From: an uncultured SAR324 cluster bacterium
GTDB taxonomy: Bacteria; SAR324; NAC60-12
Assembly: GCA_905182865.1 (NCBI GenBank)
Contig: CAJJCY010000001.1
Coordinates: forward strand, 186,001-250,000
Reading direction: 5' to 3'
DNA length: 64,000 nt
The first letter of the stretch is position 1. Every line of letters begins with the position of its first letter. The translations under genes and the position numbers were made by a program. Under the pieces are notes generated by a model. The model saw only the letters and a program-made list of their open reading frames with translations, searched no databases and was not told the origin of the DNA. Positions 60,440 through 64,000 of this stretch are shown here, piece by piece.

Positions 60440-60553
60440 GTGAAACCAATATATAACATCAATGAAGAGATTGCCCGTTATGGGCCATTTGTCATGATCA
60501 CGCGTGAAGAGAGTTTCGAGGCTTTTCAGGATTATTAGCAAGGCAAAATGTGA
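60440..60553 (+). pseudogene. Pirin-family C-terminal remnant with in-frame TAG
   Basis: The frame reads VKPIYNINEEIARYGPFVMI, then TREESFEAFQDY, TAG, and QGKM before TGA. The block EPIARYGPFVMNT.EEI..A..DYQ.G is the hallmark end of pirin proteins. No pirin core precedes it. Confidence 0.65.
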
Positions 60554-60720
60554 TTGATAAGCTGATTTAAATTGGAAATGATCTAGAAGGCTTATAATAT
60601 CTGGAGATTTTGTACTTTATTATTATGGTAATGTCCAAATTATAAATCTTATTAACGTTAGTCAGAAGCTTAAGTTAAAGCTTTGACAAAATTCTGAATT
60701 TGGCTAACTGCAAGAAGAAA

Positions 60721-61262
60721 ATGTTGGAAAAAGAAGTTATTTTAAATTTCTGGTTTACGGAGTGTACACCGGAACAATGGTTTAAAAAAGATTCTGAGTT
60801 CGATAAGATGCTGGAAGCACGTTTGCCGGCACTGTAGAACGAGCTCTTGCTGGAAAACTTGACAGCTGGGCTGATTCAGATTCAGGCTGTCTTGCACTGA
60901 TTCTGTTGCTTGACCAGTTTACCCGTAACATTTTTCGAGCCACTCCACGCGCTTTCTCAGGAGATGAGAAGTCTTTGGAGCTAAGCTTTTTATGTGAAGA
61001 AAATGGTTACCTTGCTAATGCAGATATCCACTGGTGCCATTTCATGCTGATGCCGAGGATGCATAGCGAAGATATTGCTGTTCAGGATGTCTCTTTGCCG
61101 CTATTCAAGAAACTTAATGTACAGAATGTATATGATTATGCAGTAAGACATCGAGATACGGTGGCACGGTTTGGGCGCTTTCCGCACCGAAATTCAATTC
61201 TTGGACGTTCGTCAACAAATGAGGAATTAGAGTTTCTGACGCAAGCAGATTCCTCATTCTAA
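60721..61262 (+). CDS. DUF924-family protein, frameshifted
   Basis: Frame 1 from ATG 60721 gives LNFWFTECTPEQWFKKDSEFD. After the T3 run at 60822-60824 the frame changes (adding one T restores it) to FAGTVERALAGKLDSWADSD, LALILLLDQFTRNIFRATPRAF and finally RFGRFPHRNSILGRSSTNEELEFL. These are the DUF924 core motifs. The joined product of about 181 residues is of normal family length. Function unknown. Confidence 0.82.
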
Positions 61263-61441: not shown

Positions 61442-62002
61442 CTAGTGAACAGGCTTTTTCCCATCCCCGATGGATTCTAACTCTACTCCCAATCCATCAG
61501 CAAGACGGTTGACGTAGGCATAATAACCTGCAACCTGGACAATGTCGAGGATGCCTACATCACTGAACCCTGCATCCCTCAGTGTTTGTACGTCAGCCTC
61601 AACCATGCTACTCGGTTCTTTTGTGAGTTTTACAACATAGTCCAGCATCGTACTGTCCTGTTTGGGTATGTCTGCTTTTTTGTAATCCTTGATGATTTGC
61701 TCAACGAGATCACTATCCCGTGTGATTTTGCGAAGTCCCGCTCCGTGATGAACAATTCAGTAATGGCACTGGTTTACGGTGGAGACTACAACGGCTATCA
61801 TTTCACGCTGTTTACCAGTTAAATCCCTGGTGCCCTTCATCGCTGAACGGTACAGCTCATAATGCCCCTTGAGTGTGGGTAAGTCTATACTGTGGATACG
61901 CAATATATTATCCACTCCTCCCCATGGTTCACGCAATTTGTCGTACCAATCTTTGAGTTCTCTTTCAGCTTTGTCTTCTGGAATCATTGGAATCCATGCC
62001 AT
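61442..62002 (-). CDS. AhpD-like (carboxymuconolactone decarboxylase-fold) protein with in-frame TGA at the CxxC motif: candidate selenoprotein
   Basis: From ATG 62002 the frame reads MAWIPMIPEDKAERELKDWY and GKQREMIAVVVSTVNQCHY, then TGA (61759-61757), then IVHHGAGLRKITRD to the normal C-terminal MLDYVVKLTKEP...GFSDVGILDIVQVAGYY. Homologs have C-x-x-C-x-x-H-H here, so TGA replaces exactly the second Cys, the peroxidatic one in AhpD. The frame is intact on both sides for 186 codons. Recoding as selenocysteine is the simplest reading; a Cys-to-stop mutation is the alternative. The family includes peroxidase-related disulfide reductants. Confidence 0.8.
61730..61741 (-). promoter_or_regulatory. 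Possible bacterial SECIS hairpin after the TGA
   Basis: Starting 15 nt after the TGA, the minus strand reads GCGGGACTTCGC, which can form a 4-bp stem (GCGG/TCGC, one G-T pair) with loop GACT beginning with G. The loop begins about 20 nt after the TGA, within the range known for bacterial SECIS elements. The stem is short, so support is moderate. Confidence 0.35.
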
Positions 62003-62263
62003 TTTTTCACCTTCAATAGAAAGAAAGCCATTATGCATCCAGAAATTTGCAAGCGGGAGCCCGAGGAGAGAGGCGTCAAGGAAAATGAAACAATAACCAA
62101 AAACATGGTACATAAGGATACGGATACTCTTTTTTAGTCCATAAGTATTTTCCTATCCATCTTCCAGAATGTCTGATTAAAGGAAGTAAATATTTATAAC
62201 TCTGAACAGCACCAGTGATTTCCTTTTACTGATTCTTCAAATAAGTCAACACTAAGGTCATAA

Positions 62264-64000
62264 TCAGAAAAGCCCGGACAAACTATTCAGGTACTCTGGA
62301 TAATCTGCATCGAAGCAGAAGTGCATAGTCTGGAAACCTTCACGAAAGCGGGCAACTTCGTCCCCGACATTCCTTCCATGGACTGCCTCGTTGAAAATCG
62401 CAGCGAACTCCACGAAATCATCCTCCTTCATTCCGAAACGTGTCATTTCTGCGACACCCATGCGCAGCCCCGAACTGGATGTGAAGCTCTCATCTGATGG
62501 AATAGCCTGAAAATTAACGATAATGTTGCTCTCCTCCAATTCCTGGGCCACCGCACAGCCTTGTGCATACCCTACAACCACCACGACCTGATGGGTTTCG
62601 GTGTAACCAACTTCCGGATCGCCCTGTACCTCAAGACCTTCATCCGCCAAAGCTTTAGCAAAGGCCTTGGCATTAGCAACAACCTGTGGTTGGTAGGTAT
62701 CCTTGAAGGCATTCATTTCAAGTGTAGCCATCAGCAGTCCCAGAAGGGTTCCCAGGTGATGGTTACTGACTGCTCCAGGAAACGCACGCCGCTCTATCGC
62801 TTTCCACAACTCAAACTCCGGTGCACCCTCTTCATAGGCAGCCCCAATTACACCTCGCTGCGAACCGTAAAAAGTCTTGTGCGTGGAACCCGTGATGATG
62901 TCCGCACCTTCTGCAAATGGATTTTGGAAATGCGGTCCGATCAAGCCCAGCACATGTGCCATGTCGTACATGATAACCGGCCTGGTAGACTTTGTGTCCA
63001 GCATTTTACGAATGGCCGCAACCGGTTCCGGATGCAGAATCATGCTCTTGCCGAGTATGATCAGTCCAGGATCAAAGCGGTCCAGCAGGTTCGCGGTTTC
63101 TTTCAGGTCGATACGGTACGGATTGTCCTCCAATACCGGGAAATTTAGTATGGAGTATTTTTCTGTGACTGGATCCTTTGCAACATAATCCCGTAGTGCC
63201 CCCATCGGCTGTGAACTGAGGTGACCTCCCTTACCGATGTGGTTGTTCATCACCAGAGGAATGCGGCGAGGTTCTCTTCGGCGGTCCGTGCGGTTAAGAA
63301 AATCAACGAGTGCACTGAAAACAGTCATGTTTGCCATCTGTCCGCTGATGAGCCTCGTCTCCACTAGAGGGAAGCCCAGAAAGCTCTGCATTTCTTCAAC
63401 CAGCCGATCTTCTGCCCAGGCGATGAACTCCGTTCCCTGATAGTAAAAGACTTCCTGTTCAAAGGCCGCAAGCAGTTCCTTGTGTTCAGCATAACGTCCA
63501 CAGGGATCGGTGATCTGTAGCAGTCTAACCAGCGAAGACTGTGTCATCTCAGACGGAATCAGGTTGACGCAACGGCGCTGACGCCACTCATGATTGTCTA
63601 AACTTTTTTTCAGCAGCAGTACCGTTTTCTCTCTGATAGCGGCCGAAGTAGTTACTGCTGAATCCGTTTTTCGGTCTATTGGAATTGCTCGAAAATACGG
63701 AGGAGCCTCGGAGCGTCCGTGCCATGGGACCAGTTGTGCACTCAGCCTTCGTCCGCGGACCTCAACCTCCAGTTCCTGTTCCACAGGCACAGTGGCATCG
63801 ACGTATACCAAAGCGAGTGCCCTCCGTTCCTGTTCATCTGTAATTTGCATTGTTGCACTCTCGCCCTCAAACTTCCAGTAAGGTACCATGGTTCCGCTGG
63901 AAATCACTCCAACTTTTTGATCATCCAGGAATACTGAATCACCACCACGCGTAATTCCCTTATCACTCAGGGCAAGCGGCAGAAAGCGGCGCTGAAGTAC
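62264..64000 (-). CDS. Aminomethyltransferase C-terminal domain fused to divergent serine hydroxymethyltransferase; N-terminus beyond window
   Basis: The frame is open to the window edge (about 578 residues visible). The first 110 residues are a GcvT C-terminal barrel (LSDKGITRGG, FLDDQKVGVISSGT, ALALVYVDAT, GRRLSAQLVP). The rest, about 450 residues, is SHMT-like: NLIPSEMTQSSLVRLL, RLISGQMANMTVFSAL, DMAHVLGLIG and the PLP-lysine motif GSTHKTFYGSQRG. SHMT and T-protein share 5,10-methylene-tetrahydrofolate, so fusion could channel it during glycine or methylated-glycine breakdown. SHMT motifs differ from canonical GlyA, so substrate is open. G+C is higher than in the preceding 9 kb. Confidence 0.85.
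   Translation of the reverse strand, partial: VLQRRFLPLALSDKGITRGGDSVFLDDQKVGVISSGTMVPYWKFEGESATMQITDEQERRALALVYVDATVPVEQELEVEVRGRRLSAQLVPWHGRSEAPPYFRAIPIDRKTDSAVTTSAAIREKTVLLLKKSLDNHEWRQRRCVNLIPSEMTQSSLVRLLQITDPCGRYAEHKELLAAFEQEVFYYQGTEFIAWAEDRLVEEMQSFLGFPLVETRLISGQMANMTVFSALVDFLNRTDRRREPRRIPLVMNNHIGKGGHLSSQPMGALRDYVAKDPVTEKYSILNFPVLEDNPYRIDLKETANLLDRFDPGLIILGKSMILHPEPVAAIRKMLDTKSTRPVIMYDMAHVLGLIGPHFQNPFAEGADIITGSTHKTFYGSQRGVIGAAYEEGAPEFELWKAIERRAFPGAVSNHHLGTLLGLLMATLEMNAFKDTYQPQVVANAKAFAKALADEGLEVQGDPEVGYTETHQVVVVVGYAQGCAVAQELEESNIIVNFQAIPSDESFTSSSGLRMGVAEMTRFGMKEDDFVEFAAIFNEAVHGRNVGDEVARFREGFQTMHFCFDADYPEYLNSLSGLF

Follow-up and report, generated by a model that had tools for sequence, protein, structure and literature searches.

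The window, i.e., the whole 64,000-nucleotide stretch of DNA analysed here, belongs to a genome of 3.2 Mb (5 contigs), whose nearest named relatives are SAR324 MAGs. The locus comprises a predicted selenoprotein gene, its in-frame TGA, a hairpin behind that codon and an upstream neighbour:

61442..62002, minus strand: AhpD-like (TIGR01926, peroxidase-related) predicted selenoprotein gene of 186 codons and a stop codon, codon 82 being that of selenocysteine (Sec)
61757..61759, minus strand: TGA in frame, read as Sec within the motif C-x-x-U-x-x-H-H, conserved in all seven SAR324 orthologues found
61730..61746, minus strand: SECIS-like hairpin, nt 14–30 counted from the U of the UGA, with the stem (A)CGGAG / CUUCG(C), the loop CGGGA and an invariant G
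62264..63907, minus strand: upstream neighbour ORF, which reads as serine hydroxymethyltransferase by reading of the sequence alone

The gene starts with the ATG at 62002 and ends with the stop codon at 61444–61442. When TGA was translated as U, the only internal stop was the TGA at 61759–61757, and the product of 62002–61442 was MAWIPMIPEDKAERELKDWYDKLREPWGGVDNILRIHSIDLPTLKGHYELYRSAMKGTRDLTGKQREMIAVVVSTVNQCHY-U-IVHHGAGLRKITRD... The residue encoded by this TGA is Sec82 of the real protein (MAWIPM...) and corresponds to U119 in a longer in-frame reading that starts at 62113. It occupies the second Cys position of the CxxC motif, in the context C-H-Y-U-I-V-H-H. The 104 codons 3' of the TGA are open, while base shuffles of this stretch stayed open in 0.14% of trials. 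The first-pass annotation had given the same coordinates without a strand, and had described a frame open on both sides of one TGA at the second Cys of a C-x-x-C-x-x-H-H motif; the frame is indeed of family length with no other stop. In a profile search, homology ran unbroken across the TGA, with the protein matching positions 1–173 of the 178 of TIGR01926 (E = 1.7e-42; 145.2 bits against a cut-off of 81.8), and Pfam CMD also matched. The model for AhpD sensu stricto (TIGR00777) gave only 19 of the 192 bits required. For NF041238 (AhpD_rel_CFYUT), the score of 56.6 bits was far below the required 175 and, therefore, the protein is not a member of that family. An annotation made with the standard code would wrongly stop this gene at its TGA.

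The surroundings of the gene are less regular. As the first-pass annotation had cautioned, the neighbouring pirin and DUF924 genes are both broken: DUF924 has lost one base at 60821 when compared with the intact sister copy (L049), and of pirin, intact in the same sister sequence, only a C-terminal remnant is left at about 60440–60580. In several relatives, the AhpD-like gene adjoins DNA matching the serine hydroxymethyltransferase-like region. Immediately upstream of the start codon, about 50–52 bases (window 62001–62055, minus strand) were found to be 92% identical to a Pelagibacteraceae (SAR11) gene (L064), which we take to be cysS from the conserved KMSKS context. Residues 18–39 of the longer reading, which gave strong short matches, were accordingly rejected as part of the AhpD-like protein, since they are cysS and lie upstream of the real start. 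The cysS-like stretch is absent from the sister SAR324 genome. It stops at the start codon of the AhpD-like gene, a place at which the natural sequence of the sister is similar (SIEGEKM). A second copy of 61990–62200 was not found in the window's own genome. A chimeric join at the shared word is the simplest reading of this scrap, which is probably an assembly patch and possibly a real capture. Together with a scrambled stretch in selD described below, the assembly thus seems to carry chimeric patches. The AhpD-like gene itself is confirmed by sequences from independent relatives, and the decay of its neighbours leaves it untouched, as judged from 95–96% protein identity to the sister copy and a dN/dS of about 0.2.

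The column of the TGA was compared among relatives and homologues. TGA was present at this codon in all seven SAR324 orthologues (G001, G012, G013, G014, G016, G019 and G025; 65–93% identity to the longer reading), i.e., in 8/8 counting the window gene, and the orthologues keeping it reached down to 65–68% protein identity. In a tblastn alignment, 22 more distant homologues had TGA in the same column, while the remaining ones had TGC/TGT (Cys) or Ser codons. Elsewhere, two adjacent AhpD-like genes (L029 and L033) both have TGA at the motif. Relative to the sister G001, dN/dS was 0.016/0.085 for the part preceding the TGA and 0.015/0.071 for the part following it. For the more distant orthologues, dN was likewise much lower than dS in both parts, dS being near saturation. 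Low dN relative to dS on both sides of the TGA indicates that translation past the UGA is under selection. In addition, the codons for HHGA (+3 to +6 after the UGA) showed zero synonymous change in 8 orthologues, as compared to 9 of 79 other amino-acid-invariant codons without such change (Fisher p = 0.0004 for the excess, with the position having been picked in knowledge of the hairpin location).

A small hairpin with a G in its loop at a plausible distance from the TGA had been noted before. In the window copy, single-sequence folding gave −3.8 kcal/mol for the hairpin alone, which was not above shuffled sequences, and neither the gathering score nor a relaxed E-value brought up a SECIS family of Rfam close to the gene. 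Since single-sequence folding gave no signal, the hairpin was assessed by comparison of homologues. A stem of 5–6 bp, 11–27 nt after the UGA, was present in 15/15 aligned Sec copies, a set confined to those with HHG after the motif, and G21 of the loop was invariant. On average, 5.7 of 6 pairs were formed in the 15 Sec copies, 1.8 in 11 Cys/Ser homologues and 2.2 in shuffles; thus, the hairpin is missing in the Cys/Ser homologues compared. In register, 95.6% of cells were paired, and 39–47% once the 3' arm was slid. Pair 17–27 occurs as G-C, G-U and A-U and is the sole pair with two-sided change; covariation was not significant because the other stem pairs hardly vary. Position and loop G agree with the bacterial SECIS as described previously (PMC1088965). 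The hairpin, with its conserved loop G, lies at a fitting distance from the UGA and is weak in this copy; the support for it comes from conservation.

The genome was also searched for the selenocysteine machinery, and selA, selB, selC and selD were all found. A tRNA-Sec scored over the Rfam cut-off, with the anticodon UCA according to ARAGORN, and SelB (350.7 bits), SelA (512.7 bits) and SelD (265 bits) were each over their cut-offs. In this assembly, selD is interrupted by internal stops. In 25 of 30 other genomes sampled, the gene is full-length and over the cut-off, with one TGA of its own, and the start region of SelD in the window genome also holds a TGA (KTCGUASK). A strongly diverged, frame-breaking stretch of roughly 280 bases was observed in selD (L018, about 1500–1780, on contig C1 of the window genome, G000), with about 30–75% identity to G001 in 50-base steps and flanks that are nearly identical to G001. 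A short replaced stretch was also seen in the adjoining fusA-like gene. Both the relatives and the alignment suggest that this part of selD is a foreign patch introduced by the assembly.

Three readings of the TGA other than Sec were considered. A nonsense mutation acquired during decay of the gene would fit the broken DUF924 and pirin genes nearby and the selD stops in this assembly. It is contradicted by the same TGA in 7/7 orthologues, by low dN/dS after the TGA and by the homologues aligned by tblastn, among which neither TAA nor TAG occurred at the column; this reading was rejected, as a conserved TGA under purifying selection leaves it hardly any probability. The first-pass annotation had named TGC/TGT at this codon as a finding that would speak against Sec, and a sequencing or assembly error of that kind could be imagined in an assembly with local errors and apparent mosaic patches. 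It is countered by the independent MAGs SAR324-CTD7B, NORP237, ANT-97, lautmerah10 and CPC53, all of which carry the TGA, some of them probably being the same genomes as the G-numbered ones. Since the TGA is found in independent genomes, it is neither a read error, which was rejected as extremely improbable, nor a private nonsense mutation. Finally, recoding of UGA as Trp in the style of code 4, or readthrough by another tRNA, would also leave the frame open after the TGA. Homologues without TGA had Cys or Ser at this column and never Trp, the genome encodes a dedicated tRNA-Sec(UCA) with SelA and SelB, and the hairpin is found in the TGA-bearing copies, so that recoding or readthrough is scarcely credible.

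The selenoprotein reading, put forward as a candidate by the first-pass annotation and favoured by each of the checks suggested there, is thus well supported by the conserved TGA, the low dN/dS, the conserved hairpin and the full machinery. The internal TGA almost certainly encodes Sec, its insertion being predicted from these sequence features. We are highly confident that the gene encodes a small AhpD-like protein of the CMD fold (TIGR01926), a putative thiol peroxidase or disulfide oxidoreductase, with UGA at codon 82 decoded as Sec. SelB with Sec-tRNA(UCA) would bind the mRNA hairpin just 3' of the UGA, and Sec would be inserted in place of the second Cys of CxxC. There, it may act as the nucleophile attacking a hydroperoxide, and the resulting selenenic acid may be resolved to a selenenylsulfide by the neighbouring Cys of CHYU. 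Peroxidase activity, substrate and reductant are predictions, and both a peroxidatic role of the Sec position and a peroxidase function of the family would follow by analogy with AhpD. A selenoprotein that is not a peroxidase in the cell, having a disulfide oxidoreductase or other redox role instead, is possible, if rather unlikely: the name of TIGR01926 goes no further than 'peroxidase-related', and the labels of several solved relatives read 'uncharacterized' or 'putative'. Against this, C-x-x-U-x-x-H-H presumably sits where AhpD enzymes have their active site.

That AhpD-like selenoproteins occur in marine bacteria was already known, as the first-pass annotation had stated. The Sargasso Sea study of 2005 described 27 sequences of AhpD-like CxxU selenoproteins (COG2128; PMC1088965), AhpD-like 1 was the fourth most numerous selenoprotein family in the GOS data of 2008, with 299 sequences (PMC2398784), and a CxxU selenoprotein of TIGR01926 was tabulated in a 2026 review (PMC13188914). 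The window gene shares with them TIGR01926, CxxU with Sec in second position, the marine origin and a SECIS-like stem-loop 3' of the UGA that has a G in its loop. Nothing of substance differs; here, the gene is set in a SAR324 genome with Sec machinery and orthologues. By sequence, the solved structures 3c1l, 2pfx and 6k40 belong to the same family (E of 1e-33 to 1e-26) and are presumably of the Cys type at the Sec column, whereas the window gene has UGA. NF041238, an AhpD_rel_CFYUT (seleno)protein, represents a related domain that also contains Sec (PMC13188914). In the text accessible to us, the literature on SAR324 together with selenoproteins or selenocysteine comprised only two SAR324 cells in the table of one paper. 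Judged from its sequence, the gene agrees in every respect with the CxxU TIGR01926/COG2128 family. The family is not new, and the window gene is a sound but ordinary addition to it, an example rather than a principle.

The residue at the Sec column varies within SAR324. After masking of the Sec column, the best tree required a minimum of 5 changes of label among Sec, Cys and Ser copies, with deep branches being weak and several being long. Ser at this column was seen in one SAR324 AhpD-like group (L035–L038, L040 and L164–L167), and the Ser copies (CxxS) formed a single supported group (99/96). The window genome also contains a Cys-type AhpD-like paralogue (CIYC; G000:C3:96372-96848, L168) with 33% identity. 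We give even chances to the reading that, within SAR324, several distinct Sec lineages of the AhpD-like superfamily exist alongside Cys lineages and a CxxS lineage, so that the catalytic residue would have been exchanged repeatedly. The locus connects a selenoprotein family that is common in the sea with SAR324 genomes having a full selenocysteine pathway and, if the repeated exchange is true, SAR324 would be a useful place for studying exchange among Sec, Cys and Ser.
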